Assembly (NCBI RefSeq): GCF_001269985.1
Contig: NZ_BBZB01000001.1
Span: 3,534,001 to 3,598,000 of the forward strand
DNA: 64,000 nucleotides
DNA from: Pseudoalteromonas sp. '520P1 No. 423'
GTDB taxonomy: Bacteria > Pseudomonadota > Gammaproteobacteria > Enterobacterales > Alteromonadaceae
Reading direction: 5' to 3'
Shown one piece after another: positions 24,425 to 39,975 of the stretch. Both the position numbers and the translations under genes were made by a program. How positions within the stretch are numbered: the first letter of the stretch is position 1; each line of letters begins with the position of its first letter. The notes under the pieces were generated by a model. That model was given only the letters and a program-made list of their open reading frames with translations. It made no database searches and had not been told where the DNA came from.

Positions 24425-25108
24425 ATGTCCACAAGCATGCGCCCTAGTGCACCACAATCTATCAATGAATTATTACGCCGCGTTGATGATATTGCAGGGC
24501 TAACAATAGGTGATTTAGCATCTAAGTACCAATTTAAAACACCTAAAGACTTATTGAGAGAAAAAGGCTGGATCGGACAATTAATAGAATGGGTATTAGG
24601 TGCTATGGCAGGCTCTAAACCTGAACCTGACTTTATTAATTTGGGCATTGAATTAAAAACACTACCAATTTCTTACTCAGGCAAACCCATTGAAACAACC
24701 TTTGTATCTGTTGTTCCTCTTAAAGAGTTACAAGGGCTAACATGGCAAAAGTCGCCTGTTAAAAAGAAACTTAATCATGTTTTATGGCTACCTATTTTAT
24801 CTGAAAGAGATATTGCTCCTGAACAGAGAATTATTGGTTCAGGATTTTTATGGCAACCTACACCAAGCCAAGAAGCATTATTACAAAAAGACTGGGAGCA
24901 ACAAATTGAAATGATTGCGCTTGGTGAAATAGATCAAATCAACGGAAAACTAGGTCAAGTACTGCAAATTAGACCTAAAGCAGCTAATTCTAAAGCATTA
25001 ACTGATGCCATAGGTCCTAATGGTAAAATAATTCAGACTTTACCTAGAGGTTTCTATTTAAAAACAAATTTCACTGGAGATATTTTAAAAGCTCAATTTG
25101 GAATTTAA
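24425..25108 (+). CDS. mutH: MutH, DNA mismatch repair endonuclease
   Basis: The 227-residue protein has the restriction-like active-site triad Asp69, Glu76 and Lys78 in PEPDFINLGIELKTLP, at nearly the same numbers as E. coli MutH. It nicks the unmethylated strand at hemimethylated GATC, which implies Dam methylation in this organism. Its last 24 bp overlap the 3' end of the convergent FHA-protein gene. Confidence 0.97.
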   Translation: MSTSMRPSAPQSINELLRRVDDIAGLTIGDLASKYQFKTPKDLLREKGWIGQLIEWVLGAMAGSKPEPDFINLGIELKTLPISYSGKPIETTFVSVVPLKELQGLTWQKSPVKKKLNHVLWLPILSERDIAPEQRIIGSGFLWQPTPSQEALLQKDWEQQIEMIALGEIDQINGKLGQVLQIRPKAANSKALTDAIGPNGKIIQTLPRGFYLKTNFTGDILKAQFGI

Positions 25109-26920
25109 ACTAAATTCACAGCCATCTAAGCTGATCAATGCATTTTTATCGATAGGAACTTTAGCGTATATCTCTTGGCTATTCATTTTTAACTTAGGCG
25201 TTTTTCTGTTCACAGGTTCAATAAAATAACCTGAATCATAACTTAAATAAGCAATAGCCTCAGAGCCATTAATGCAGCCAATATCAATAATGTTTTTATC
25301 TTGCGTGCCTAACGCCAGTCGTTCTCCAAGCATTACCCAAGTTTTATTTAAATCTAGCTCATGATCAGGCCATACTATAGCTAAATCATTAGACTCTAAA
25401 AACTGTAAAGGTAATGAATTAAAAGAAATAATCAAAGCTGAAGAATCATACTGACTTAGGTTAAGCATTAATTGGCAAGCCTTTAGCTCTTGGTTAATAT
25501 CATTGGCAAGTAGAAGCCTACTATCAGCTTCTATTTGCACTAACCTGCCTTGTAATAACTGGTTGTCATTATATTGACAACCATATTTACTGCCTTGTCC
25601 TAGCAAATAAAAGTGATTGTTTTTATAAATAAATTGGCACTGTTTTCCTGCTTCATCTAAATGTTGATAACCAAAACTGAGCTGATGATTGTTTATAGTT
25701 AAATGGTCATGATCCGCTTTCACTTTACATAAATCGATTTGTTTATCTATGAAAAAGTGCACGCCTGACAAGGCCTTATCTGCAACAACATTCCCTTGTA
25801 TATGAACTATATATTCATTAAGGTTTTTTCTTAATAAGCCTAACTCACTCACGACTGACTTTTTTATATTTTTGTTTTTTAATTGTTTATCTAACAGAGA
25901 ATAAGCTAAGTAATACTCTTTAGCTGTAATCGCTTGTTTTACTTTTTTTACGGCTGATTTTTGATTTAACTTATAAAAACAGTAATAGATAAAAGTGCCT
26001 AAAAATAAAGCTATCAATAGCACACTTAAAAACTGTATTGGTATAGGTGATGTACTTTTGACTATGGTGAACTTGCTTAGCTTACTTCTATAATCAATTA
26101 AAACCGTTAAAGAGTGTTGCTCAAACTCTTTTTGCAATAATTGATTTAGCTCGCTAGCAGGGTAACTTGACGTCAAAGTAATCAGTTTATTACTTTCATT
26201 ATTTGAGTCCGTCCCTTTTATTGTAAAATCAGACAAAGATATATATGTTTTATTTTCTGAAATAGCATTTAAAAATGAAGTGATGGCTTTTAGGTCTCTT
26301 GAATTAAAGCGACTAAACTCTAAATCATAGCGATAACGCTTAGGTAATCGGTTAATCTTTAAAGCTAATATATAACCAGCATCTTGCGCTAATTGATAAG
26401 CTTTTTTTGCCTGCCAGCGCTTAAAACACTCACCTTCACAGTTTACGGTTAAATCGTTATACCTTTTAGAGTCACTATAAGATTCAACTCTTTCGCCTGA
26501 GTCTAAATCAACTAAATAGCTTGAAAAACTGAAACGCATTCCTTTAACATTAAATATAGTTTCATCAAAGATTTCAATTCGATAAACTATGGCTAAATTA
26601 ACTGCTAATTGCTGTGATTTATAATTATAGGTTTGAGCTAAGCTTAATAATTTATTATCTGAGATCACGTCGCAGGTTTTATTTATGCAATTATTTAAGT
26701 TTAATAATGATTGATCAAATACAGTAAAGTTATCATTTACTAACTGAGTTGAGAGTGCACTTGTGATATCTAAGTATATTTTAGGGGCGATGTTATTTTG
26801 TTTTTTACTTACATTTCCTTGTGGTACAACAACGAGTTGCCAGTTTGATTGCGCTAAAGTTTTATCGGTTAATAAAAAAAACAGTAAAAATATAACAAAA
26901 TAAACTTTACCAAACTTCAT
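25085..26920 (-). CDS. Cluster gene 14: periplasmic domain + membrane span + FHA-like domain
   Basis: The 611-residue protein has a signal peptide (FVIFLLFFLLTDKTLAQ) and a periplasmic part to about 290. That part resembles the whole of cluster gene 13: FTVFDQSLLNLNN against FDVYDQAILTLSN, VNCEGEC against VECKQEC. One span follows (about 295-318, FLSVLLIALFLGTFIYYC), then a cytoplasmic region ending in an FHA-like beta domain (HFYLLGQGSKYGCQYNDNQL). FHA domains usually read phosphothreonine; no kinase is in the window. It overlaps gene 13 by 14 bp. A role as envelope-to-cytoplasm signalling or scaffold is inferred only. Confidence 0.8.
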   Translation of the reverse strand: MKFGKVYFVIFLLFFLLTDKTLAQSNWQLVVVPQGNVSKKQNNIAPKIYLDITSALSTQLVNDNFTVFDQSLLNLNNCINKTCDVISDNKLLSLAQTYNYKSQQLAVNLAIVYRIEIFDETIFNVKGMRFSFSSYLVDLDSGERVESYSDSKRYNDLTVNCEGECFKRWQAKKAYQLAQDAGYILALKINRLPKRYRYDLEFSRFNSRDLKAITSFLNAISENKTYISLSDFTIKGTDSNNESNKLITLTSSYPASELNQLLQKEFEQHSLTVLIDYRSKLSKFTIVKSTSPIPIQFLSVLLIALFLGTFIYYCFYKLNQKSAVKKVKQAITAKEYYLAYSLLDKQLKNKNIKKSVVSELGLLRKNLNEYIVHIQGNVVADKALSGVHFFIDKQIDLCKVKADHDHLTINNHQLSFGYQHLDEAGKQCQFIYKNNHFYLLGQGSKYGCQYNDNQLLQGRLVQIEADSRLLLANDINQELKACQLMLNLSQYDSSALIISFNSLPLQFLESNDLAIVWPDHELDLNKTWVMLGERLALGTQDKNIIDIGCINGSEAIAYLSYDSGYFIEPVNRKTPKLKMNSQEIYAKVPIDKNALISLDGCEFSLNSKLSF

Positions 26921-27806
26921 TATTTTCCTTTGCTTTTTTATTTCTAAAGGTAATTCTTTTCACTGTAAAAGTATTCCCTTCAAAATTAATAACACTTTGC
27001 ATATCTAATTCAGTAAGCATTTTGTTTAAGTTGCGATCTAACTTAGCAGTACCGATTGTTGATTGATACCAAATTTCACTGCGGGTATGTCTGATTTCGA
27101 TTGGTCTATGATGAGCATACCCTGAAAAAATCACTAAATACTCTTCTATTGCCATATATTCTTTAGCGTTAAAACCATCAAAGATCAGAGCATATTCAGT
27201 TGTCATGCTATTTGAATCATTATGATCTGATATTTCATCACCATTATTTATCCATAATAGCTTTTCGGCTAATACTGCACCTAAGTCATTTGCTAATACC
27301 CGCGATTTATCTCCCACCACGGTCAATATACATTCTTGTTTACACTCAACAGGTCCGTTAAAGCTTTTACCGCTATCGACTTCAAAGCTACCTAAGTGCT
27401 TGCCTGTTTTTACATTTAATAAACGGCCCATCAGCAAAGTATTTATTCTGGTGCGAGATGTTAAATTTTGTGTACTGGCATATATTTGAAAAATAACAAC
27501 AATATCAATAGGAGGCCTTTTACTGGCTCGCGCAATTTCAATCAGTTCACTGTCAGTCCTTCGAATTTTAGCGCTATTTCTATTTGATAAGGTCAATATT
27601 GCTTGATCATACACATCAAAGCCTCGATCATGCATTTGGTTAATTAAAGCATCTAAAACACGTTTGAAAATCCTGCTATCGCTAGGTACCGAATCACCTG
27701 CAGCATCTTCACCAATTATAAGAATATTGGGTTTATCTGCAGCCAAGGCCGGCGTTAGGGAACATAAGTTAAATAACAAAAATAATATGCTGTGCCACAG
27801 TCGCAT
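26907..27806 (-). CDS. Cluster gene 13: exported CsgG/FlgO-like two-part protein
   Basis: The 299-residue protein has a signal peptide ending ALA (about residue 22). The first part, with DIVVIFQIYAS and LLMGRLLNVKTGKHLGSFEV, looks like the CsgG/LpoB/FlgO alpha-beta fold. A C-terminal part starts at about 205 (YALIFDGFNAKEYMAIEEYL). Both parts recur in gene 14, which adds a span and an FHA-like domain. The shared Cys pair (CKQEC / CEGEC) may be a disulfide. The fold call is by eye and tentative. Confidence 0.75.
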   Translation of the reverse strand: MRLWHSILFLLFNLCSLTPALAADKPNILIIGEDAAGDSVPSDSRIFKRVLDALINQMHDRGFDVYDQAILTLSNRNSAKIRRTDSELIEIARASKRPPIDIVVIFQIYASTQNLTSRTRINTLLMGRLLNVKTGKHLGSFEVDSGKSFNGPVECKQECILTVVGDKSRVLANDLGAVLAEKLLWINNGDEISDHNDSNSMTTEYALIFDGFNAKEYMAIEEYLVIFSGYAHHRPIEIRHTRSEIWYQSTIGTAKLDRNLNKMLTELDMQSVINFEGNTFTVKRITFRNKKAKENNEVW

Positions 27807-27870
27807 TCTGACTTCCGCCTTAATAAGTATACTTTACATTATGCAGCATTTAAGCCAAATAAATAGGTTG

Positions 27871-28707
27871 TTAACAATCATTTTGCCATAATAATCTTGG
27901 GCCTTTTGCTTGAATGCCATCATAAGAGATATTTTTTAACCAAATATTACCTAAAGCAACTTGGTACTGCCCCGTGATAAATTGACTTTTATAGTATGTT
28001 TTTGTTTCACTGAGTTTTTTAATTAGGTTTATATCAATTGATAGCGGAAATAACCTTACCGGGGTGCCTGATTGAGTATTTGAAAATTGATACTTTTCAC
28101 TTTTTGTCATTTTGCCATTAATAATACGCACAAAATCGCTCAGCTTTACGTTTTTTACGTGGCTATTTGCTATTAAGTTAATATCACCATTATTTAAGGT
28201 ACCTAGCCTCATACCTGTGCATTGCGTTAATAACTGAAATAACATTTCACGTTCACTGACTAAATTTGGCCATGCCACTTCTATTGAAGGCCCTTTTCCA
28301 GCTAATACATCTTGATAGTTTTTTATCGCTTGCTGATCTGTCACTGGTTTATCATTTTTTGTATCTTGATGTTTAATCGCTTTGGTACTTTTATGCTGAG
28401 TGTTTTGATTTTTTGTATTTGCGATTTTATTTGGCTTATTTTGATTTAATTGACTCCGACCCCTTTTTATTTTTGGTGGTGCGGGTAACTCAATATTTGA
28501 TAAGTTGATCTCAGTGGTGTTTGGTGCTTGTTTTTCTTTTTGAATTTGTTGCTCTGGCTGCTCCTGTAAAAATTTATTAGCTAATTTTTTTATTTGATGT
28601 TGCTCTATTACTTTCTGATTTAACAGGTATAAAATGGCTATTAAACATAATGACGTTGTTAATAAAAACAGCCCCTTTTTTTGAATGTTCGACTTTAAAT
28701 TAATCAT
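27871..28707 (-). CDS. Cluster gene 12: single-span protein with Pro/Lys/Gln linker
   Basis: The 278-residue protein has a short cytoplasmic N-terminus, one span (about 12-29, GLFLLTTSLCLIAILYLL), a low-complexity charged linker rich in Gln, Lys, Asn and Thr to about 140, and a folded periplasmic C-terminal domain (150-278). The plan resembles TonB, TolA or PilP-type proteins that bridge the periplasm, but there is no TonB C-terminal motif. No specific family is recognised. Confidence 0.75.
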   Translation of the reverse strand: MINLKSNIQKKGLFLLTTSLCLIAILYLLNQKVIEQHQIKKLANKFLQEQPEQQIQKEKQAPNTTEINLSNIELPAPPKIKRGRSQLNQNKPNKIANTKNQNTQHKSTKAIKHQDTKNDKPVTDQQAIKNYQDVLAGKGPSIEVAWPNLVSEREMLFQLLTQCTGMRLGTLNNGDINLIANSHVKNVKLSDFVRIINGKMTKSEKYQFSNTQSGTPVRLFPLSIDINLIKKLSETKTYYKSQFITGQYQVALGNIWLKNISYDGIQAKGPRLLWQNDC

Positions 28708-28746
28708 AATAGTGTCACCTCAATCAAATCAGTTTTATAACTGTGT

Positions 28747-29232
28747 TTAACCTGGATTAAGGCTATTTAACGCCTTCATATTCATTTTATCTGCAATCTC
28801 TCTTAATGACATTTTGCGCTGTGCAATAGCTTGCATATCTTGCTGCTGTGTAATTTGGCTAGTTTGTATTTTAGTTGCTAAAGTATCATCTGAAACTATC
28901 ATTTTATTTTGCTTTGCTACTTGTTGTTCTTGTTGACTCTCTTTTATTTTGGCTGCATCGGACATCTCTTTCATTTGTGCTTTTATTTCATTCATTTGTT
29001 GCTCTAACATAGCAACCGTTTTGCTTTGAACTTCATTTTTTTGCTGCAATGTTTGAAATTGCATATTGATTGATTGCGTTATATCCACCAGCATTTCTTG
29101 GCTTGATTTACCTTGGTTTTGTGTTGTAAATACACTTGATAACCATGCTTTACTGCTTGAGTTACTATAAGCAAGATAACCAATTGCAGTAATAACGCTT
29201 AAGTAAAAAATGCTATAAATAAGTGTTTTCAT
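28747..29232 (-). CDS. Cluster gene 11: single-span coiled-coil protein
   Basis: The 161-residue protein has one N-terminal span (about 5-23) followed by a coiled coil (about 45-115; TLQQKNEVQSKTVAMLEQQM) and a Gln-rich tail. It lies between the channel-like gene 10 and gene 12 in the same block. It may be a periplasmic coiled-coil partner of the channel proteins. The family is not recognised. Confidence 0.75.
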   Translation of the reverse strand: MKTLIYSIFYLSVITAIGYLAYSNSSSKAWLSSVFTTQNQGKSSQEMLVDITQSINMQFQTLQQKNEVQSKTVAMLEQQMNEIKAQMKEMSDAAKIKESQQEQQVAKQNKMIVSDDTLATKIQTSQITQQQDMQAIAQRKMSLREIADKMNMKALNSLNPG

Positions 29233-29293
29233 AATTTTATCCTATTTAAAATCTAAACTTCATAATTCAATAATATGGCAAAACTAAAAGCGC

Positions 29294-29809
29294 TCAATTT
29301 TGATCTGGTGTATCAGCAATTGCACTTAAAGATACCCAAGCTCTGATCAAGTTTGCCGTTGGTAACCCTATTACGGTGGTCATAAATGCCGTTGAAAAAT
29401 GAGTAGTTAACTCACCTATCACTAAATGAACCGACTCTGGCGTTAATGACTGCTGTCCTAAAGAGCCAATGCCTAAGCTAATACCGAGTAAGGTAAATGT
29501 TAATGCTAAAGTTGCAATGCCATTTGAAACTTGGCTACCCACTTCATACCAATATTCAGTATTATTGGCCGTTTTTACTTTAGCGCCAGAATAGATACCT
29601 ATGACCAATAGCAAGCTATAACAAAATATAAAGCTCCAACTAAATACCTTTTCTAACCAAACAAATAAGTCAGCTAAATTCATTTGCATAACAAAACTGA
29701 CTAGCGCTAATAAAATAATACCGACTCCACCCATTAGCCCTAATGTGCTTTTTATATTTTGGCTAAAGCTCATCATTAACGATGTGTTTTTCACCTCCAT
29801 AGTAGACAT
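29294..29809 (-). CDS. Cluster gene 10: MotA/TolQ/ExbB-like proton-channel protein
   Basis: The 171-residue protein has four likely spans (about 22-42, 53-75, 96-117 and 130-152). The last two, with GIATLALTFTLLGISLGIGS and HFSTAFMTTVIGLPTANLIR, resemble the conserved TM2-TM3 core of TolQ/ExbB/MotA proteins, including the Thr/Gly pattern. It is shorter than the usual 210-300 residues because the cytoplasmic loop is small. Its ATG overlaps the stop of gene 9 (TAATG). The likely partner is the single-span product of gene 1. Confidence 0.75.
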   Translation of the reverse strand: MSTMEVKNTSLMMSFSQNIKSTLGLMGGVGIILLALVSFVMQMNLADLFVWLEKVFSWSFIFCYSLLLVIGIYSGAKVKTANNTEYWYEVGSQVSNGIATLALTFTLLGISLGIGSLGQQSLTPESVHLVIGELTTHFSTAFMTTVIGLPTANLIRAWVSLSAIADTPDQN

Positions 29810-30222
29810 TAGCGGCGTCCTTTTTTAGTCGATAAAATGCTATTACTGCTAATGTTCAGTTCACTTAACCAAAGCTCCATAGGTAATAAGTTTTTCTCTG
29901 CACTAGCATGGATTAAAAATGTCAGTTCATAGTTTTGAAACGCTCTTTGTACGATAGCTGACTGATTATTTAACAATCTATCATCACGTAACACCATACG
30001 CTCTACATCTGTTAATCTGCGGTAACTCGCATTCATACTCATTTTTTGCTGTTTTGGCGTGATTTGGTCGCTGGTAAATGTTTTTAACATCGCAGCACGT
30101 TCTCGCTCTAAATTTTCAAGCGTTAAAGCTGATTGTGCGTTTACTGATAGAGAAAAAGCACTTGCTAAAAAACCGATTGATAAAGACACAATAACCGTTT
30201 TAGTTTTCATTACTGTATTCAT
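29809..30222 (-). CDS. Cluster gene 9: small exported helical protein
   Basis: The 137-residue protein has a signal peptide (VIVSLSIGFLASAFSLSVNA, cleavage about residue 29). The helical charged mature part ends in KKGRR. A good ribosome site (AAGGAA) supports the first ATG. It is translationally coupled to the channel-like gene 10. The family is not recognised. Confidence 0.75.
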   Translation of the reverse strand: MNTVMKTKTVIVSLSIGFLASAFSLSVNAQSALTLENLERERAAMLKTFTSDQITPKQQKMSMNASYRRLTDVERMVLRDDRLLNNQSAIVQRAFQNYELTFLIHASAEKNLLPMELWLSELNISSNSILSTKKGRR

Positions 30223-30239
30223 AATATGTTCCTTAATTC

Positions 30240-31109
30240 CTATAAAAATAAATCTGCAACACTTGAAGGGGATGTGATTTCTTGTCTGTTAACTTCCATC
30301 TCATCTGCACCGTAAGACATTTGGTACTCCATCTCATTTGCATCTAAGGCAACAAGTCTTGCCATATAACTTAATAACAAACTTTCTTGGTCTAACAGAG
30401 ATTGCTCTGATGACACATCAATTAATAATTGGCGCAAATATTCTTGTGAGGTGACCTCTACCCCATTTAAAGTCGGTGATTTATTGGCGCTATGTTGGCT
30501 TATTTTGTTTTTAAGCTGATTAATTTTATCTAAGTTGGTAGCATACTCAGTAGCATAAGGGGATGCTTCGTCATAACCGCCATTTACTAAGTGCTGGTCA
30601 ACACGGGTGATCATTTTTTCCATACGTACTCTGGCTGCTTTTTGTGATTGACGCAGCTGATAACCTAAACTGCTAGAATTTGACTGATTTTGAGCGGTCA
30701 TTTTATCTAGAATATTTAAATACAAATCTTGTTTAGTAACTAACGCGCGCTGTCTTAAATTTTGACTTTCTTGTAATAAGTCTAAATAATGTGACTTTTG
30801 CTGTAACAGAGCGTGACGCTGTTCTATCAAATCTTCATCTTGCGCATTTGATAATTGTTCGCCTAAGACTTTCATCTTATTCACTGTATTAAGCATTTCT
30901 TTTTCAATATTGCTAACACGTGATGCCATAGGTGACATATTAAAGTCTTGCTCAACACGTTTTTCAATAATATTGACAGGTAAACGGATCAGTTTATCAC
31001 TTGCTACCGGTTGCCAACTCACTTTAGACTTTTGACCATCAGCAGAACTCATAGCTGAAAAACTAAAGCTAGTTAATATGAATAAGAAAACTACTTTATG
31101 TAATAACAT
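30240..31109 (-). CDS. Cluster gene 8: exported coiled-coil protein
   Basis: The 289-residue protein has a signal peptide (FLFILTSFSFSAMSSA). The mature protein is mostly helical with heptads at about 55-110 (VSNIEKEMLNTVNKMKVLGE) and 150-215. A strong ribosome site (GAGGAGAG) precedes it. It is 21 bp after the lipoprotein gene 7. It is likely a periplasmic structural protein; the family is not recognised. Confidence 0.75.
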   Translation of the reverse strand: MLLHKVVFLFILTSFSFSAMSSADGQKSKVSWQPVASDKLIRLPVNIIEKRVEQDFNMSPMASRVSNIEKEMLNTVNKMKVLGEQLSNAQDEDLIEQRHALLQQKSHYLDLLQESQNLRQRALVTKQDLYLNILDKMTAQNQSNSSSLGYQLRQSQKAARVRMEKMITRVDQHLVNGGYDEASPYATEYATNLDKINQLKNKISQHSANKSPTLNGVEVTSQEYLRQLLIDVSSEQSLLDQESLLLSYMARLVALDANEMEYQMSYGADEMEVNRQEITSPSSVADLFL

Positions 31110-31130
31110 GACTCTCTCCTCTATTTTTAT

Positions 31131-31712
31131 TTAGTGGTTTAACCAATATTGACGACGCTGAAGTTCTTCTCTTAATTGCGGGCTAATATTTAAAGAAACC
31201 ACCTGCTGCGCATTGATTTTAGAAGGCTCTAATAATGCCGTTGCGGTATCAATTAATGAGGTGTAATCGTTGAAATATAAATCTTGCCCTGGAAATGCAG
31301 ATTTAAATTGCACAAAAGCCATTTTTGCCTGACTTACATCCCCGCCTTTTATGTAATTAAAAATCGATAATGCATGCAGTTGCATCACATCTTGTGACAG
31401 GTGCAACGGCACTTTATGTGAAAAGTCACTTATACAATTTGATAATAAACGTGCTGAAGCTAAATACTGTGCCGTTGAACTTGATGTTCTGGCTGCGTTA
31501 TCTAAAGCCAAAGCGTTGTGTTTACAGTCTTCATCTAAAGTAACTGGTTGAACATACTCAGGCTGTTTCTCTTGTACATTAGAATCAACAACAGCGATGT
31601 TAGAGATTGACTGGCTTTCTTTGTTAGTAGGTGTAGTTGAGCTACAACCCGTTAATAAAGCGATGCTTGTTGCTAAAGTTAAATATATAAACTGATGCGT
31701 TTTCATTTTCAC
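31131..31712 (-). CDS. Cluster gene 7: outer-membrane lipoprotein, first gene of second block
   Basis: The 193-residue lipoprotein has lipobox LLTGC at about residue 23, with Ser at +2, which favours the outer membrane. The mature part is helical and TPR-like in texture (ALDNAARTSSSTAQYLASAR). It follows a 102-bp gap that holds the 16-bp element shared with gene 1, so I take it as the start of a second transcription unit. Confidence 0.78.
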   Translation of the reverse strand: MKMKTHQFIYLTLATSIALLTGCSSTTPTNKESQSISNIAVVDSNVQEKQPEYVQPVTLDEDCKHNALALDNAARTSSSTAQYLASARLLSNCISDFSHKVPLHLSQDVMQLHALSIFNYIKGGDVSQAKMAFVQFKSAFPGQDLYFNDYTSLIDTATALLEPSKINAQQVVSLNISPQLREELQRRQYWLNH

Positions 31713-31747
31713 TCCAAAATTATTAAATCTATTGGTATGAAATTAAC

Positions 31748-31763
31748 TATGAAAAGCTTTGAG
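31748..31763 (-). promoter_or_regulatory. 16-bp element before cluster gene 7 (shared with 38463-38478)
   Basis: Minus-strand CTCAAAGCTTTTCATA is identical to the copy before gene 1. It has an AAAGCTTT palindromic core and ends 36 bp before the gene 7 ATG (38 bp for gene 1). In both cases AAAAA lies just upstream. It is a likely promoter part or operator for the two blocks of the cluster. Confidence 0.7.
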
Positions 31764-31814
31764 GTTTTTTTTGGGGGTTATAATTAATTTATTATTATTT
31801 AATTTTAGATTAAT

Positions 31815-33053
31815 TTAAAAAGTCATAAGTTTATGCTGAAGTAAACGCGTATTTATTGATAATCGTTTTAGAATAGGTGAAATGGAAGCGACTGTTATAG
31901 GGCCTTTAATCTGTTTAATTTCATTATTTAAAGAAATAATTTGAGCATCAGTTAAAGGTGAAGATAAAGGCAATAATAAATAAAAAAGATCATTATTTAA
32001 ATTGCTTGGTATTGTGATTGGCCAAGTGTTTTTTTCAGGTTTTAAATTAATAAGCTCTTTTTTATACCGAGTAAACATAAACACTTGTTTGGTGTTTTCT
32101 GGTGCGATAAATGATAACTGACATAATTTGGCATGTGCTAAAGTTTTAAATCGACCATTTACTAAATCTAATTTATTTGTAGAAAGTGGCTCATCACACT
32201 TTTTATTATCGGTATTTAAATACGTTTTTTCTCGAACATGTGCAATTAAATATGGGTTTTCATTTGTCACATTAACTTTATTTTCTGGGTGGTTATCATC
32301 TTCAAAGAGCGCAACCTTTTGTTGTGATTCATTATCTTGAGCAGTCTGTGTATTTATAATAAATAATAAAAGTAAAACGCTAAGTACTATCAAATATAGT
32401 GCATTTTTATTGTGAGCTATATAGTTCTGGGGTGATATTTTTTTTAAACTGTTCGCTGGTTTATTAATTAAGTGAATATTGCTAGTCACCTCCTTATTAG
32501 CTTTAGGCAAATGTGATTTCGCCTGTTCTAAATCAGAAACTTGAATGCAATATGCTTTATAAGGTGTTAGTTTTTCTGTTAAATAATCTTGTACAGGCAA
32601 TAAAAATTTAACGTCAAAACCTAAGTTTTGCCAAGTCAAAATTTGATTTTGTGCAAGCTTAAGTTTAGTTGTTATATGAGTAACATTTTTAACTGACTTA
32701 TCTTTTATATTGATTTCGCCAGTTAAACAGAATATATGATCATTTTCATTAGGTACGCCATCTCCTAATAAATCAATTGATTCTAAATAGTGCGCAATAT
32801 AAAACCCTAATTGCCAGCTGTTACCATGATCTATATTGCCCGATACATCAATGCGATAAGACTGACCATTAAAATCTTTTTGAATAATACCAGAGCCTTT
32901 TTTTACAAAACTATGATAAGCATTACTTATATTTAATGATTGCGCGGTGCCATTAAGGCATACAAGTGACATAACATCAGGATCATCAATTAACTCTATA
33001 TCCTGAACGGCAACTAAGCCTTGTGTTGTCGCTATAAAAACATGGCTCTTCAT
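31815..33053 (-). CDS. Cluster gene 6: membrane protein with degenerate Lon-like (S16) domain
   Basis: In this 412-residue protein, residues about 60-185 resemble the Lon proteolytic domain: HGNSWQLGFYIAHYLES at the nucleophile-helix position (Ser79), then CLTGEINIKDKSVKNVTHIT and VKFLLPVQDYL, with SDLEQAKSHL at the end. Ser79 is kept, but the usual GGLKEK is replaced by HITTKLK, so the dyad Lys is lost or shifted to Lys130. One span (about 218-235) and a periplasmic C-terminal part follow. It has no ATPase domain. It may be a substrate-binding or processing module. Confidence 0.65.
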   Translation of the reverse strand: MKSHVFIATTQGLVAVQDIELIDDPDVMSLVCLNGTAQSLNISNAYHSFVKKGSGIIQKDFNGQSYRIDVSGNIDHGNSWQLGFYIAHYLESIDLLGDGVPNENDHIFCLTGEINIKDKSVKNVTHITTKLKLAQNQILTWQNLGFDVKFLLPVQDYLTEKLTPYKAYCIQVSDLEQAKSHLPKANKEVTSNIHLINKPANSLKKISPQNYIAHNKNALYLIVLSVLLLLFIINTQTAQDNESQQKVALFEDDNHPENKVNVTNENPYLIAHVREKTYLNTDNKKCDEPLSTNKLDLVNGRFKTLAHAKLCQLSFIAPENTKQVFMFTRYKKELINLKPEKNTWPITIPSNLNNDLFYLLLPLSSPLTDAQIISLNNEIKQIKGPITVASISPILKRLSINTRLLQHKLMTF

Positions 33054-33066
33054 TTAGGACTTTTCA

Positions 33067-33609
33067 TTATAATAAAAATATTTTTGCATTTGCATTACTT
33101 AATAATTGATATTCTGGTGATTCTTGTTCGAGTATTAGCTGGCTCCTGCCATCAATTAAATTAGGAAATTGTACGCGTTTAACTTGCTCGTTTAATTGAC
33201 AGTGTAAAATAATTTCATCCGTTTGATGATGCGCAGCACTGTGTTCTATCATTAATATGACATATATTTGATCAACATGTTTTTTAGTCGCTTTAAATTT
33301 TAAAGTAAAACCTTCTCCAAATCGTTCATTTAAATCATGTTCACTGCTTGCAGCTGCTTGATAGTCACTTATTGAAAACTGATATTGCTCAAGTAGCATT
33401 AAATACTGGTTTCGAGTATTTAAGTTTTGTTTGATGGCTAACTCAATTTTTAATGTATTAGCTTTGTCTTTGGCAAATATATAAGCAAATAAATCGCCAA
33501 ATAAAACAACTGAGTGATTTTGTGTTTCGTGTATTTGTTTTAGATGCTGATGTGCAATATAAACTTTCTCTGCCAAACTATTGTTACAAGATTGCTGTTC
33601 ATTATTCAT
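33067..33609 (-). CDS. Cluster gene 5: soluble protein of unknown function
   Basis: The 180-residue protein has no signal or span. It has an N-terminal helical half and a beta-rich C-terminal half (IYVILMIEHSAAHH, then QLNEQVKRVQFPNLIDGRSQ). It overlaps the gene 4 stop by 8 bp and has GGAG before its ATG, so the two are translationally coupled and probably interact. I do not recognise it. Confidence 0.72.
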   Translation of the reverse strand: MNNEQQSCNNSLAEKVYIAHQHLKQIHETQNHSVVLFGDLFAYIFAKDKANTLKIELAIKQNLNTRNQYLMLLEQYQFSISDYQAAASSEHDLNERFGEGFTLKFKATKKHVDQIYVILMIEHSAAHHQTDEIILHCQLNEQVKRVQFPNLIDGRSQLILEQESPEYQLLSNANAKIFLL

Positions 33610-35254
33610 CGCTCACTCCATAAAGTGAATTTAACTTATTAAAGAATATGAAAGTATCTGAGCGAAAATTTTCACCTTTTGAATTAGCTTGCTGAGATTG
33701 TTCGCTTAACAATGTATCTAACTGACCAATAAAGCAGTTTAACTCTTGTTTTAACTTTAGCAATAAGTCTTGGCCTTCATGATAAACATCAAGTTCTTGC
33801 AATTGCGGTAATGTATTAAACCCTGCTTTATTATTCGCATTAAAAACTCGGTTTGCATGTTTTAATGTTTTATTTAATTCAGGTAACTTTAATTGCCATT
33901 GAACCATTTCATTAAATAGCGCATTGATATTTTTTATCTTAGTACTATTTACTTGCAGTGCTAATAATGCTTGTAATTCTTTTAGTAACTTTTTATCTGT
34001 TACTAACTGATTAAACAAAGTAAACATTTGTGCTTGTTCATGCTGATGGTTTATATGTAATAAAGCCCACAAAGTATCAATAATTTGCTGATAAATCTCA
34101 GATATTAACGCATTGAATAATTGATAGTTTGTTTCAGGGGGTTGATTGATTTTTTGAGTGATTAACTGATTATCTTTTTTTCGAGCCGCTTGTACTATTG
34201 CAGCTTGCAAACTACCAAATACATGCACTCTAGCAACTGTAAGTACTAACTTTTTAGAAAAAGGCAAACATTCAATAATGGGTTTTAAAGCCAAGGTTTG
34301 GTTTTTTGTTAAAAATTTAGGTTTTTCATTTAACCAATCTATCTCTAGTTTATCTTGTTGTAGCTGTACTAAAGTTTGCTCTAATAAGTCTGCCGAGACT
34401 TCTCCTGCTTCAATGTTTTCACCAATTGATAAAGATGAACGTGCATTTATTTTTGAATAAGAAACAGATAAAGCATGATGAAATGAAACCAACTCATAGA
34501 AACAGCTAGAAAATAACTTAAAACCTAAATTATTGCCCTCTTCACTGGCATTAAACCAAAAGTTTAAAATATATTCATCGGTTAGCCATGACGTGCTATC
34601 AAGTTTACTTTCTGAAGTAGTCTGATTATCTAAAAAACTTGCCATAAAACGAAAGCGTCGCTGCTCTTGCGCTGATGACAAATGTTGCGTTAAAAATTGA
34701 TATATCTTTTTTTGTAAGTCAGATGTGATTTCTTTTATTTTTAATGTGTCTGCGGATACTAAACTTAATTCAAATTCATTGATTAAATTAGGGTCTACAT
34801 AAACAATAAACTCCAAAAGTGCAGCGAGTAAACCTACTCTAGAAATTGATATATCAAATTGTGTGCTTTTAAGGTTTACACGCAGTAGGTTATCAGTAAT
34901 TAATATCTCATATTCATTACTACTAAACTTGTTTTGAAAGTGATTTCTAAAATGTGCTTGTGATAAAAACTCATTTTGCCAAAAGTAACTTAATAATGGT
35001 GAAAAACGACGTGTATTTTCATTCTTTTCAGGCGCCTGATAATTGATGATCGCAAAACATAAATAACTTAATTCTAAGCAAAGCTTGCCATAATTTCGAC
35101 AGACTATATTTTGCGATAAGCTATCTATTTCATGTTTTTTAAACTTTGTTTGTTCACTATTGTGTAATGACGGCATTTCTCTTAAGGAATAAAATATGCC
35201 TTGCAGCTCATCACTTACACCAAAGTTAGTGATCACACTTGTCATTTTTTGCAA
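33602..35254 (-). CDS. Cluster gene 4: large soluble helical protein of unknown function
   Basis: The 550-residue cytoplasmic protein has no span or signal and is rich in Leu, Gln, Asn and Lys helices. The start is a TTG at 35254 with AGAGGA nine bases before it; the ATG three codons later has no ribosome site at proper distance. It is coupled to gene 5 and 17 bp after gene 3. No motif is recognised, so the function cannot be stated. Confidence 0.72.
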   Translation of the reverse strand: MQKMTSVITNFGVSDELQGIFYSLREMPSLHNSEQTKFKKHEIDSLSQNIVCRNYGKLCLELSYLCFAIINYQAPEKNENTRRFSPLLSYFWQNEFLSQAHFRNHFQNKFSSNEYEILITDNLLRVNLKSTQFDISISRVGLLAALLEFIVYVDPNLINEFELSLVSADTLKIKEITSDLQKKIYQFLTQHLSSAQEQRRFRFMASFLDNQTTSESKLDSTSWLTDEYILNFWFNASEEGNNLGFKLFSSCFYELVSFHHALSVSYSKINARSSLSIGENIEAGEVSADLLEQTLVQLQQDKLEIDWLNEKPKFLTKNQTLALKPIIECLPFSKKLVLTVARVHVFGSLQAAIVQAARKKDNQLITQKINQPPETNYQLFNALISEIYQQIIDTLWALLHINHQHEQAQMFTLFNQLVTDKKLLKELQALLALQVNSTKIKNINALFNEMVQWQLKLPELNKTLKHANRVFNANNKAGFNTLPQLQELDVYHEGQDLLLKLKQELNCFIGQLDTLLSEQSQQANSKGENFRSDTFIFFNKLNSLYGVSDE

Positions 35255-35271
35255 AATATCACTTCCTCTGT

Positions 35272-37038
35272 TTATAAATCTTGCGCTAGTCGAAAACCAT
35301 CATCATCAAAACGTGCATTTTTATCGTGACGATACCTCACACCTAAACGTAATTGGCTTTGTTTGCTTTTGTAGGAGCCATCTTTTAATACGGCCTTACT
35401 ACAACGCCCTGTTAACCAAGCAGAGCCATCATTGGGCGCATTCTTAAAATTATCATTCCAACAGTCTTGCACGAGTTCTTTCACATTACCGTGCATATCA
35501 TATAAACCAAACCTATTTTTAGGATATGTTTTAACATCGTCAGGATACTTTTGTTTTTCACACTGATTTGAATAATACCCAAATCGCGCTTGTGAGCAAT
35601 TGATACGGTCGCCCCATGTGTATTTATCATAACTTCCCGCTCTTGCTGCATACTCCCATTCAGCTTCGCTAGGTAAACGATATTTTTGCCCTGTTTTTTT
35701 ATTAAACCAAGGTATAAACTGTTTGGTTATTTCATTCCAACTGATATTAACCACAGGTTTATTTTTACTATTTATAAAACCTTTAGGCTGATGTAAACAG
35801 ACTTTGTCTTGATAACATGCTTGCCATAATGCAAATGTGACTTCTGTAGCCATAAGCTTAAAAGTCGCGACTTTTACCTTATGCACAGGTACTTCATAAC
35901 TAGAAATATTTTTTACACCCATCATAAAGTCACCTGAAGGGATCGTTATAAATTGCACATCAAAAGAGTGTAAAAATGTACGTTTATTTTTTAATTGTTC
36001 CACTTTCGCCAATGCACTATCAGTATATTGTCCCTCAGGATACTCATTTAAGTACGCTGTATAGCTTTGTTCTGTATCGGTTTTATTTGCTAACAGCCAA
36101 GCTTGATTATCTAACTCTATGGCTTTGTTTTTACGCATTAAAACTAAATGTGATAAGTTATTTTCAGCCTGTTTGGCATACTTGCCACTCATATAATTTG
36201 ATAAGTACTTTTGATATGAGACTTCATTATTAATTTTTTGGGCATTCTGCCAAGCGGCATCATCTTGTTGATTAAATTTATTTTTTTTATCTGTTATTAA
36301 TTGATTTAAATTATCTCTTGCTTGTTTTAGATAAGGGCTTTGAGGATTCTTTTCGATATAGTTTTTATAAGCTAATTCTGAATTTTCAACTTTAGCCGCA
36401 GTCCACTTATCATGAATAATTTCATCAGCTCTGGATTGCGCCAATTCATCATACTCACCATTAGAGAAAGATTGGCTAAAGCGTTCATAACTATCTATAT
36501 CATTTGTTTCTTTAGCTTTCTTCCAAGCATTTTCTTCTAATTGAAAATGTTCAATCCAGCTTATCGCTGTGAATGTTAAAGCGATTAGGGTTATTAATAT
36601 AATTATTTTATTTTTATAGGCTTGGCAAACTTGAATGATTGATTTTAAATATTTTTGAATGTTTTCAGAGTTGTTCCTGCTTATTTTCTTTTCATTTAAT
36701 TTTGTAGGATTTGATTTCAATTCTTGCAGCTTATCTTTAAAAAAATCAGTGATCTGCAGCTCTGTTAAACCAATTTCCTTGCCTGATTCAATTAATGCTT
36801 TTTTTAATTTATTATCTGTTTCAATAACTGAAATATGCTTTTCTAAGCTAGCTAACCAATTTTTCAACGGTATTAGTTGCTCTCTGATACTGAGCTCAAT
36901 CTCAGAAATAAAACACATTAAAGCCGTTTCGTCTAACCCAGCAACATGAGCTAAAGTGTTTAACTCCTGTTTGTCACCACCGGAGATTTCACCTTTATGT
37001 GTTAATATATCTATAATTTTTGCATACAGAAACCTCAA
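35272..37038 (-). CDS. Cluster gene 3: membrane protein with four repeats and FGE-sulfatase fold
   Basis: This is at least 588 residues. A cytoplasmic N-terminal part to about 140 is followed by one span (KIIILITLIALTFTAISWI). Four repeats of about 40 residues follow (W..A...N....Y..YL...P.G.Y...A...L..L). The C-terminal domain from about 358 has a formylglycine-generating-enzyme-like fold (ITIPSGDFMMG, LPSEAEWEYAARAGSYDKYT, NRFGLYDMHGNVKELVQD, DDGFRLAQ). The metal-binding Cys pair of true FGE is not apparent, so a binding or structural role is likelier. The start is uncertain: TTG 37038 is the first usual start, but the frame is open about 90 bp further upstream without an ATG. Confidence 0.78.
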   Translation of the reverse strand: MRFLYAKIIDILTHKGEISGGDKQELNTLAHVAGLDETALMCFISEIELSIREQLIPLKNWLASLEKHISVIETDNKLKKALIESGKEIGLTELQITDFFKDKLQELKSNPTKLNEKKISRNNSENIQKYLKSIIQVCQAYKNKIIILITLIALTFTAISWIEHFQLEENAWKKAKETNDIDSYERFSQSFSNGEYDELAQSRADEIIHDKWTAAKVENSELAYKNYIEKNPQSPYLKQARDNLNQLITDKKNKFNQQDDAAWQNAQKINNEVSYQKYLSNYMSGKYAKQAENNLSHLVLMRKNKAIELDNQAWLLANKTDTEQSYTAYLNEYPEGQYTDSALAKVEQLKNKRTFLHSFDVQFITIPSGDFMMGVKNISSYEVPVHKVKVATFKLMATEVTFALWQACYQDKVCLHQPKGFINSKNKPVVNISWNEITKQFIPWFNKKTGQKYRLPSEAEWEYAARAGSYDKYTWGDRINCSQARFGYYSNQCEKQKYPDDVKTYPKNRFGLYDMHGNVKELVQDCWNDNFKNAPNDGSAWLTGRCSKAVLKDGSYKSKQSQLRLGVRYRHDKNARFDDDGFRLAQDL

Positions 37039-37154
37039 CTCACTTTTGACTTTAAGTGTTTGGTTTTCATTGATATTTATAGGCCCTACATTATTTTGTT
37101 CTATTTTCCTTAACCTTTTAATGCTTTATTCAGTTATGAGTTACCAAATAGCCA

Positions 37155-37991
37155 TTAATTAGATAACTGACCATTTGGTTTGTAAATTGACTCCCATTGT
37201 CTTACTTTTTGCTTACGTGTCAACATGCTAATGTCTTCAACATGATTACTTTGTTTATTTATATTTGATTCTTTACTTTGCTGCGGCGCTCTATATTTTT
37301 TATTGCGGGTTAAATTGTGACGTCTGATCTTTCTTATATGGCTTAATTTAGCTAATTCATCTTCTGATAAATACTTATAGTCATCAATTTCATCCAATAC
37401 CGCTTCGCTGTCACTATTTTTAGCAAAGTATTCATTAATATGTTTTTTTATTAGTTTATTTACAAATACATGGTTTTTAAAATTTTTGCTCGTTGATATA
37501 ACTTTACGCACATACTTATGTGTTGCAGGGATCACTTTTAAACTGCCATCATACTGCCTAACAGCTGAGCCACCATTGTAATGAGATAAAGCAATATCTA
37601 ACCTTTGGTCGTACATATTCATTAACTGCTTTAAATACCGAATGCCTATATCTATATTAGTTGAGATATCATAAAGCTGTGCTGCTGATACGTTAAACTC
37701 CCCCATAGCTGTTGCGGGCATAATTTGCATCACACCTCTGGCCCCTGCATGACTTAAAGCATCGCCTTCAAAGTTAGATTCGACCTTGGCAACTGACAAT
37801 GCCAAAATTGGGTCTAGATCATATGCTATCGACTTTTCAATGATAGTATTCATCACTTTTAATTTTTCAGATTGATATGACGCTTGTGCATTATGAGTAG
37901 CACACAGTAATAACATAAAGATAAAACAGGCTTTAATACTATTAGCTATATTCCTTATACTCCTATTACACATTTTGATTATTGAAACCAT
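37155..37991 (-). CDS. Cluster gene 2: exported lytic transglycosylase (SLT family 1)
   Basis: I start at ATG 37991, which overlaps the gene 1 stop (TAATG) and has GGAGG before it, giving 278 residues. A signal peptide ends AQA (about residue 37). The SLT domain has the catalytic Glu in ALSVAKVESNF, then SHAGARGVMQIMPATA and ALSHYNGG. A basic C-terminal tail follows. It cleaves peptidoglycan glycan strands; such enzymes open the wall for trans-envelope machines. Coupling to gene 1 suggests it serves this apparatus. Confidence 0.88.
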   Translation of the reverse strand: MVSIIKMCNRSIRNIANSIKACFIFMLLLCATHNAQASYQSEKLKVMNTIIEKSIAYDLDPILALSVAKVESNFEGDALSHAGARGVMQIMPATAMGEFNVSAAQLYDISTNIDIGIRYLKQLMNMYDQRLDIALSHYNGGSAVRQYDGSLKVIPATHKYVRKVISTSKNFKNHVFVNKLIKKHINEYFAKNSDSEAVLDEIDDYKYLSEDELAKLSHIRKIRRHNLTRNKKYRAPQQSKESNINKQSNHVEDISMLTRKQKVRQWESIYKPNGQLSN

Positions 37992-38425
37992 TATATTTCC
38001 TCCAGACGTGATAACCATTGCTCGTTTAAGGTTGTTATCAAAAGGTTTGAGCTGTTTATTTGTGTTTTAAGTGTAATAACCTTAGAAATAGGCAAATTAC
38101 TTTCGATAGCTAAAATAAGCTTATCTTGAGGGTTAAAACTGTTAGCTTTAATTGAATTCAGATCTGTATCATAAAAAAGACCATGATAATAAATTACATA
38201 TTTAAGCGCTTCCCCTTTTGTTTGCTTTTCTTTGTCTGTATTTTCTTTAGTGACTGCTATCGTTTTTGCTTTAGCTAACTCTGATACCTGTTTTGATTCT
38301 GCTGGCACACCCATAGATATTAAAGCCAAAATCAGCAGTGCAAAAAATGCCATAGATAAAGCAAGTGCTACTTCAGTCAGTGCTTGTGTTGTTGAATTTT
38401 CATGTTCTTTTAATTTAATAGCCAC
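37991..38425 (-). CDS. Cluster gene 1: single-span MotB/ExbD-like protein
   Basis: The 144-residue protein starts at GTG 38425. One span covers residues about 18-40 (TEVALALSMAFFALLILALI), with an acidic Glu18 at its cytoplasmic edge followed by AFF eight residues on, which recalls the Asp...AFF of MotB and the Asp of ExbD. A periplasmic domain of about 100 residues follows, without an OmpA-type peptidoglycan motif. I infer that it is the stator partner of gene 10. It is first in the cluster, downstream of the 16-bp element. Confidence 0.65.
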   Translation of the reverse strand: MAIKLKEHENSTTQALTEVALALSMAFFALLILALISMGVPAESKQVSELAKAKTIAVTKENTDKEKQTKGEALKYVIYYHGLFYDTDLNSIKANSFNPQDKLILAIESNLPISKVITLKTQINSSNLLITTLNEQWLSRLEEI

Positions 38426-38462
38426 GACTAATCACTTATATATAACTTTAATATAAATGTGT

Positions 38463-38478
38463 TATGAAAAGCTTTGAG
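38463..38478 (-). promoter_or_regulatory. 16-bp element before cluster gene 1 (shared with 31748-31763)
   Basis: Minus-strand CTCAAAGCTTTTCATA is the same sequence as before gene 7, 38 bp before the GTG start. It lies between the eno terminator and gene 1. Confidence 0.7.
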
Positions 38479-38538
38479 TGATTTTTAAAGATGTTAGAAT
38501 TATTTTAGAGTTAATAGGTAGGTTATTTTCAAATATGG

Positions 38539-38567
38539 AAAAGGTTTGGTGTAAAACCAAACCTTTT
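38539..38567 (-). terminator. terminator of eno
   Basis: AAAAGGTTTGG / CCAAACCTTTT, a perfect 11-bp stem with a 7-nt loop, about 29 bp after the eno stop. Confidence 0.88.
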
Positions 38568-38595
38568 ATTTAAATCATGCTAGTGAGCAGATTTA

Positions 38596-39888
38596 TTATT
38601 GACCTTTAATTTCGCTACGGCCTTTATAAGCAACTTTATCGCCTAAAGTACCTTCAATACGAAGTAGTTGGTTATATTTAGAAACACGGTCAGAACGACA
38701 TAGTGAACCAGTTTTGATTTGACCTGCAGCAGTACCTACCGCTAAATCAGCAATTGTTGCATCTTCAGTTTCACCTGAACGATGTGAAATAACAACTGTA
38801 AAACCAGCATCTTTAGCCATTTTGATTGCTTCTAAAGTTTCAGTAAGCGAACCAATTTGGTTGAATTTGATTAAGATAGAGTTACCGATGTTTTCATCAA
38901 TACCACGCTTAAGGATTTTAGTATTAGTAACAAATAAATCATCACCTACTAATTGTACTTTCTCACCGATTTTATCAGTTAAGATTTTCCAACCAGCCCA
39001 ATCACTTTCGTCTAAGCCATCTTCAATTGAAACAATTGGGTGGCGCTCAGAAAGACCCGCTAAGTAATCAGCGAAACCAGCTGAATCAAATACTTTACCT
39101 TCACCTTTAAGGTCGTATTTACCGTCTACGAAGAATTCAGGTGCAGCACAATCTAATGCTAATGTGATATCTTTATTCATTTCGTAACCAGCAAGTGTTA
39201 CAGCTTCAGTAATGATAGCAAGTGCTTCTTCATTTGATGCTAAATCTGGTGCAAAACCACCTTCATCACCAACTGCAGTGCTTAAACCACGATCACTTAA
39301 TACTTTTTTAAGTGTATGGAAAATTTCAGCACCCATACGTAAAGCTTCAGTGAAAGTTGATGCGCCTACTGGCTGGATCATGAACTCTTGAATATCAACG
39401 TTGTTATCAGCATGCTCACCACCGTTGATGATATTCATCATAGGTACTGGCATAGAATATTGGCCTGAAGTGCCATTTAAATCAGCGATATGTTCGTAAA
39501 GCTCAACACCTTTATCAAGTGCTGCAGCTTTAGCAACTGCTAATGACACAGCTAGAATAGAGTTTGCGCCAAATTTTTCTTTATTTTCTGTACCATCAAG
39601 CTCAATCATAATGGCATCAATTTTAGCTTGCTCAACTGGATTCTGACCAATTAAAGCTTGGCCAAGTTCGCCATTAATGTAATTTACTGCTGTTAGAACA
39701 CCTTTGCCTAAATAACGTGATTTATCACCATCGCGTAATTCTAATGCTTCACGGCTACCTGTTGATGCGCCAGATGGTGCACATGCACGGCCCCAAAGAC
39801 CGTTATCTAAATGTACATCTGCTTCAACAGTTGGATTACCGCGTGAATCCATTATTTCACGACCAATGATTTTTACTATTTTTGACAT
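38596..39888 (-). CDS. eno: Enolase
   Basis: The 430-residue protein starts at ATG 39888 (AGAGGAA ribosome site), giving [20 protein letters not shown]; an upstream in-frame start would add 18 residues with no family counterpart. The signature [20 protein letters not shown] and the [18 protein letters not shown] segment are present. It converts 2-phosphoglycerate to phosphoenolpyruvate and is also an RNase E partner in gammaproteobacteria. The order pyrG-eno is conserved. Confidence 0.99.
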
Positions 39889-39975
39889 TTTAGTTCCTCT
39901 TCCCAATGATAGTTTTAGTAATTCGTGGATATTAATACTCATTCAATAGAACAGTATTAATTTTTAGCAATAAAA

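Follow-up and report, generated by a model that had tools for sequence, protein, structure and literature searches.

A conserved two-module gene block between mutH and eno in Pseudoalteromonas, possibly encoding an ion-driven trans-envelope machine

A fourteen-gene block in the mutH-eno interval

The window analyzed here is a 64,000-nucleotide stretch of Pseudoalteromonas sp. '520P1 No. 423' (G000:C1:3534001-3598000, in a 5.39 Mb genome of two contigs), in which fourteen minus-strand open reading frames (ORFs), numbered g01 to g14 in transcription order, run from position 38425 down to 25085 between eno and mutH (table 1). An initial annotation had proposed that these closely packed genes form an undescribed machine spanning the cell envelope. 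All 14 ORFs were recovered at the positions it gave, and the spacing of neighboring genes ranges from a 28 bp overlap to a 116 bp gap. The stop end of g14 and mutH (MutH in Pfam, 5e-31) overlap tail-to-tail by 24 bp. Apparently gained or lost as one unit, the 13.3 kb block occupies exactly the mutH-eno site that is near-empty in two genomes of the same genus lacking the system (G302 and G366), where mutH and eno are convergent neighbors whose matched ends lie ~73 and ~81 bp apart. In another such genome (G244), the gap measures ~1.5 kb and holds one other gene. A 323-amino-acid gene (L182:4428-5399, plus strand) was observed in this gap in a same-genus genome without the cluster, so the gap may have acquired genes more than once. 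At the protein level, Pseudoalteromonas sp. C2R02 is a near relative (g06 95%, g13 97%). The inverted repeat that we read directly in the leader between eno and g01 is a candidate eno terminator; it was absent from the sites listed by a promoter/terminator scan, which was itself uninformative (50 promoter-like sites vs 69.3 in shuffles).

Table 1. Genes and features of the mutH-eno interval in window positions (aa, amino acids; TM, transmembrane segment; signal- and TM-like segments of g01 to g14 were called by simple hydropathy)
Feature	Position	Strand	Module	Description
eno	38596-39942	-		flanking gene
leader eno-g01	38426-38595	-		inverted repeat just after eno, stem 38565-38557 / 38549-38541
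g01	37991-38425	-	B (first gene)	144 aa; single TM, invariant Glu18 at TM start; ExbD/TolR/MotB-like pattern; no Pfam match
g02	37155-38018	-	B	287 aa; exported SLT lytic transglycosylase by profile (PF01464, 5e-20)
g03	35272-37038	-	accessory	588 aa; TM 145-163, C-terminal FGE domain; N-terminal Ser/Thr kinase in many relatives
g04	33602-35254	-	B	550 aa; no known family
g05	33067-33609	-	B	180 aa; TM/signal not seen; no known family
g06	31815-33053	-	B	412 aa; N-terminal Lon-protease-like domain, TM ~212-230, C-terminal domain with conserved Cys pair
g07	31131-31712	-	A (first gene)	193 aa; predicted lipoprotein, LTGC lipobox
g08	30240-31109	-	A	289 aa; signal-like N-terminus
g09	29809-30222	-	A	137 aa; signal-like N-terminus
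g10	29294-29809	-	A	171 aa; polytopic membrane protein with a predicted fold like that of TolQ/MotA/ZorA; last two helices with invariant Thr/Gly
g11	28747-29232	-	A	161 aa; N-terminal TM, variable linker
g12	27871-28707	-	A	278 aa; N-terminal TM, Pro/Lys-rich linker, C-terminal domain, invariant Cys163 and Cys278; TonB-like architecture
g13	26907-27806	-		299 aa; exported; homologous to N-terminal half of g14
g14	25085-26920	-	accessory	611 aa; signal and g13-like domain, then TM 293-311 and an FHA-like C-terminal domain whose signature is degenerate
mutH	24425-25108	+		flanking gene

Conservation and distribution of two modules

The g10 family comprises 1372 database relatives at E ≤ 1e-3, out of 1666 candidates. 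A g10 profile scan of genome contigs, taking one genome per species, supplied at least 80 loci, and an iterated profile of each window gene was then searched against all ORFs of 80 fetched loci. By the titles of their records, these come from Alteromonadales genera, Hahellaceae and Pseudomonadales metagenome-assembled genomes (MAGs), SAR116, Rhodospirillaceae, Terasakiella, Thalassobaculum, and others, including two Methylocystaceae MAGs and one deltaproteobacterial MAG. Six genes, g07-g08-g09-g10-g11-g12 (module A), are contiguous and ordered in 61 of the 80 loci with a median gap of 3 bp, a proportion that becomes 58/61 among loci with at least 2.5 kb on each side of g10 and 46/47 with at least 9 kb. 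Five others, g01-g02-g04-g05-g06 (module B), adjoin module A on the same or the opposite strand, or lie outside the fetched locus. Thus g04 is present in 49/80 loci, and among 16 genomes tested from the remaining 31 it was detected outside the locus in 15, the sole exception being the deltaproteobacterial MAG, in which it was not found. In five of these 15 the distance from g10 is at least 27 kb (~27 kb in L007, other contigs at no less than 30 kb in L005 and L009, ~317 kb in L075, and ~1.4 Mb in L052), and in five it is 13-15 kb, within an extended SAR116 cluster (L058, L061, L071, L073, L079). For the last five, g04 lies on another contig; at least one of them, L038/L141, whose second contig begins with g12, is probably a broken neighbor. 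The maps show g04-g05-g06 kept together at most of the out-of-locus sites, often with g01-g02.

The two modules also co-occur across genomes. When 394 genomes were sampled evenly from the order, the window's own included, g10, g04, and g08 each matched the same 7, with one further weak match each for g10 and g08 in a long frame; in a sample of the phylum, g10 matches 7 of 398 genomes, again with its own, three of them outside the class. Protein distances of modules A and B correlate (Mantel r 0.79-0.87 over 50 loci, with 0 of 2000 permutations as high), and r is 0.95-0.98 in the 13 loci where g04 is not in the g10 locus, a correlation to which shared species history contributes. Conserved order together with co-occurrence places the grouping beyond chance, and the block belongs to an undescribed, co-occurring two-module system whose conserved part is the 11 genes g01, g02, and g04-g12 plus the g13 family. 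The integrated set initially proposed is therefore narrower than fourteen genes, since g03 and g14, found in 27/80 and 24/80 loci, are accessories. Neighborhood comparison had been named beforehand as a test of the proposal, and the neighbors of the core do not vary freely. That unrelated genes stand side by side by chance, or that a genomic island is merely passing through, is barely credible as a reading: the patchy distribution of the block within its order and the near-empty site in relatives would suit it, but order and co-occurrence are kept across Gamma- and Alphaproteobacteria, and searches of 72,556 plasmid and 50,697 phage records gave no match to g10. For the 11-gene core, this reading is refuted.

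Several loci carry variations on this plan. Two tandem g13 genes occur in L041, L043, L045, L046, L051, L062, and L080, where module B lies on the strand opposite module A. In the SAR116 loci L058, L061, L065, L071, L073, and L079 (and L134-L138), a further conserved set of varying number (clusters c12, c13, c14, c16, and c8) stands between modules A and B, one c14 member having an LpoB domain (1e-8); these clusters are possibly extra parts in that lineage. In Terasakiella, the system adjoins an exported caspase (Peptidase_C14, 9e-18) with a bacterial SH3 domain (L034:346-2190, minus strand), with clustered genes in L036 and L066. Finally, the system and the neighbor c7 occur together in a record whose title, Mesoflavibacter sp., would place it in Bacteroidota (L075/L133); this record may be mislabelled, because c7 is otherwise seen in alphaproteobacterial loci.

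Enzyme domains, signaling arm, and motor candidates

Only two Pfam families, SLT (g02) and FGE (g03), lie above cut-off in the 14 proteins. Eleven of them (g01 and g04-g13) have no family above any cut-off, and g14 is assigned to the FHA family only through its relatives. When all 14 proteins were run against NCBIfam, g03 hit FGE models of a general kind and g02 hit transglycosylase models, in no case at the model's cut-off, and the other rows were at chance level. PADLOC, run on 10 of the 14 proteins, returned nothing below E 0.005, and profiles of g01, g06, g13, g12, and g08 searched against PDB sequences produced chance rows only (best E 0.042). Nor did literature searches restricted to Creative Commons-licensed PubMed Central (PMC) text find a description of such a system, so that in the libraries and literature searched the set matches no characterized system, as had been supposed. 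Since most of its families have no Pfam match, the gene set offers a testable list of missing envelope functions.

The assignment of g02 as an SLT lytic transglycosylase is firm on sequence grounds. It carries the motif ESNF at residues 80-83, with Glu80 in 40/40 aligned sequences, and a Glu is the catalytic residue of SLT lytic transglycosylases. The lipobox of g07 (LTGC at residues 20-23) is likewise a firm motif call, and together with the signal-like segments it agrees with the lipoprotein and signal-bearing proteins listed initially. The Lon-like membrane protein of the same list is supported for g06: a small Lon_C profile, built from the three Lon_C-matching proteins of the same genome, aligns with it by hhalign at 80% (E 1.3e-5, 81 columns), with no Pfam hit by HMMER. 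Ser79 is conserved in 45/45 aligned sequences and Lys130 in 44/45, with one gap; these two are candidates for the Lon Ser-Lys dyad, but the stretch aligned by hhalign takes in the Lys side alone, possibly with the Lys two residues out of place. For g12, the TonB-like label is one of architecture only (TM, Pro/Lys-rich linker, C-terminal domain). The C-terminal fold, searched as residues 123-278 in VIA, gave no TonB/TolA row among those listed (best Foldseek E 0.66, best VIA Z 3.5). The His (SHLS) described in PMC12204202 as conserved in the TM of TonB/TolA-type transducers is missing from that of g12, where at most 2 His among 59 sequences occur in any TM column. The g13 protein is homologous to the N-terminal half of g14 (hhalign 99.4%). 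A CsgG/LpoB/FlgT-like identity was not supported for g13, as no Pfam row appeared at E ≤ 0.01 in 23 members; the FlgT hint is the name 'Flagellar assembly protein T N-terminal d...' that UniRef gives to a single relative (P0193), and the 15 best family pairs listed do not include that of g13 with c14, the SAR116 neighbor with the LpoB match.

The FGE domain of g03 is firmly assigned by profile (PF03781, 151 bits vs a cut-off of 23.3; 6e-44), in line with the FGE-fold membrane protein initially described. Several gammaproteobacterial relatives carry an FGE-tailed Ser/Thr kinase together with an FHA protein, and the g03 gene of L009, L010, and L022 joins a Ser/Thr kinase to a peptidoglycan-binding domain and to FGE. 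The kinase motif HRDxKxxN is present in 17 of 35 g03 ORFs. A kinase profile match without the motif was obtained for three complete Glaciecola genes (L020, L030, L035) and four ORFs cut at the locus edge, and no kinase match for those of the window, of Pseudoalteromonas L002 and L003, of L028, three of L066, and four more cut at the edge. A PP2C-cluster gene occurs at three loci (cluster c32, by Pfam on the L033 member). Beside module A of L016, a Ser/Thr kinase ends in TonB_C (2.5e-18) instead of FGE (L016:3159-5780, plus strand), a fusion that would link the kinase arm with a TonB-type domain. The FHA-like domain of g14 falls below the Pfam cut-off in the window (E 0.027), whereas FHA is clear in three of four relatives scanned (L010, L018, and L020, at 1e-9 to 1e-8; none in L013). 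The FHA phosphothreonine-reader signature is G-R ... S ... N-G; at these positions the window protein has C-K, D-E, and Y-G, while 21 of 24 g14 homologs retain the Arg and the same 21 retain N-G, the exceptions being the window, L002, and L003. Kinase loss and loss of the FHA signature are not strictly tied, as the Glaciecola group keeps the signature with a motif-less kinase. The cytoplasmic FHA signaling first suggested therefore fits the kinase-bearing relatives, whereas the window keeps the frame of a signaling arm without the kinase and probably without phospho-reading. Phospho-control would be an accessory, given how few of the loci hold g03 and g14.

The candidate motor pair is g10 and g01. 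The best fold-search rows for the predicted structure of g10 were TolQ/MotA/PomA/ZorA complexes, and Thr and Gly residues are invariant in its last two helices. In g01, position 18 is Glu in 37 of 39 aligned sequences, the other two being gapped; known ExbD/TolR/MotB members carry an Asp as the proton-binding acid, so the invariant acid differs between the two. The VIA stator match of g10 is of a kind that is not decisive for helical bundles, and the sequence tests of such a pair were negative: g10 has no Pfam match, and the MotA_ExbB model (PF01618) matches 12 sites in its own genome and none at g10; across 28 g10 relatives, only two gave any PF01618 row (best E 0.048); hhalign of g10 with the stator family did not exceed decoys; and g01 has no Pfam match, with PF02472 silent there and hhalign at 2%. 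In PADLOC, g10 reached ZorA only at E 0.11-0.37. The weakest PF01618 match above cut-off in the same genome is a 270-aa MotA-like protein (G000:C2:1024198-1024527, L092). The TolQ/MotA label of g10, for which sequence homology is undetectable, would accordingly describe a modelled fold and a residue pattern, and the ExbD-like label of g01 a TM pattern. For the channel and single-span proteins of the initial annotation, no sequence match is significant, and we infer a stator identity for both from fold and residues only.

Interpretation and comparison with known systems

Our best explanation, whose chances we consider evenly balanced mainly on the grounds of fold and residues, is an undescribed ion-driven trans-envelope machine of the TolQR/ExbBD type; its ion drive, protein contacts, division of roles, and output are all inferred, while the data establish the block and its conservation, the enzyme domains, the conserved residues, and the degenerate state of the kinase/FHA arm. 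The multi-helix g10 and the one-TM g01, with a glutamate proposed to be essential, would form a TolQR/ExbBD/MotAB-like unit in the inner membrane, whose motion g12, perhaps with g11, would relay across the periplasm as TonB/TolA do. Peptidoglycan may be opened for assembly by g02, and g07, g08, g09, and g13 would make up the periplasmic or outer-membrane end, while the membrane-anchored, Lon-like g06 with g04 and g05 might control assembly or turnover. In many gammaproteobacterial relatives, the FGE-tailed Ser/Thr kinase, the FHA membrane protein, and, at few loci, the PP2C phosphatase would add phospho-control; in the lineage of the window, lacking the kinase domain and with a degenerate FHA signature, this arm appears reduced. 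Our guess at the most likely output is an energized process at the outer membrane, whether assembly, export, or remodelling.

The failure of g10 in every stator-family sequence test also invites a motor-less account, in which g10 is a scaffold and g06, the kinase/FHA/FGE arm, and the exported g07-g09 and g13 form a relay that senses stress or the surface and regulates envelope proteins through proteolysis. The kinase, PP2C, and FHA partners in relatives and the invariant Ser and Lys of the Lon-like domain speak for such a relay, but the conserved core consists mostly of exported or membrane proteins with a lytic transglycosylase and the signaling genes are its variable part; an invariant Glu in the membrane, together with the Thr rows, fits ion flow, and the top fold rows of g10 are stators. 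We regard this account as unlikely, though deserving of serious attention. If the ion-driven machine is real, it would add to a short list, as to our knowledge few ion-driven outer-membrane machines are known, and it is kept in ocean SAR116 assemblies and several marine Alteromonadales. The loci also amount to a natural experiment, in which the same core occurs with an intact, with a degenerate, and without a kinase/FHA arm.

Within this genome, the search for four known systems was confined to the block's own proteins. Divergence from the Myxococcus Agl-Glt/Nfs family, a gliding or spore-related machine, appears improbable as the origin of the block. The account in PMC3169522 describes parts of the same sort (TolQ-like, ExbD-like, FHA, and exported proteins in patchily distributed Proteobacteria) and reports the Agl-Glt core in Gammaproteobacteria, with horizontal spread. 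According to its Table 1, PF01618 picks up AglR at 4e-18 and PF02472 picks up AglQ/S at 3e-15 to 7e-18, whereas both models miss g10 and g01; the same table has GltC/D/E as TPR proteins and GltG as FHA and TonB in one protein, a fusion with no counterpart in the block, and none of the 14 proteins gave a TPR or TonB row at E ≤ 1. A proteobacterial analog of the type IX secretion/gliding motor, in which a proton-driven membrane motor with a bridging protein would move a periplasmic protein of FGE fold, is slightly less probable still. In PMC12635249, PorK has an FGE fold and the track is pushed by motors; the GldK/PorK-GldLM system thus resembles the block, where an exported domain of FGE fold stands next to what may be a motor, and g03 matches the NCBIfam GldK model at 6e-18. 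That match reflects general FGE similarity, since it reaches 65 bits vs a cut-off of 350 and PvdO scores higher. The FGE protein of the block is optional and kinase-linked, its fusions with kinases suggest sensing, and loci without the gene retain the core, so that g03, present in so few loci, is unlikely to be the moved part.

The kinase, PP2C, and FHA partners of the relatives recall the threonine-phosphorylation pathway of type VI secretion, which consists of the PpkA kinase, the PppA phosphatase, and Fha. Type VI secretion was rejected, as no family row of that system was found for the 14 proteins, the kinase is FGE-tailed, and the arm is optional and in the window degenerate. Zorya defense was likewise set aside, the ZorA rows of g10 being its only ones among the ten proteins run through PADLOC. 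vWA force transducers beside tolQ-like genes have recently been proposed as motor-linked envelope proteins in Proteobacteria; in PMC12204202 they were found through motors of the PF01618 type and through vWA domains. None of the 14 proteins gave a vWA row.

A bolder form of the ion-driven reading, which we advance tentatively and consider rather doubtful, would make the block a separate class of machine, with the TolQR/ExbBD/MotAB architecture without traceable sequence ancestry, a glutamate axle, a disulfide-bearing transducer of new fold (g12), a membrane Lon-like protease as a machine part, and plug-in kinase/FHA/FGE control. The block shares three components with the ion-driven trans-envelope motors TolQR-TolA, ExbBD-TonB, and MotAB (also ZorAB): a multi-helix membrane protein whose last two helices hold invariant Thr/Gly, a one-TM partner whose invariant residue is acidic, and a protein built of TM, linker, and domain. 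It differs from them in the absence of detectable sequence homology, in a Glu in place of the Asp, in the missing transducer His, in a g12 domain without a PDB match above noise, and in the eight further conserved families that its core comprises.

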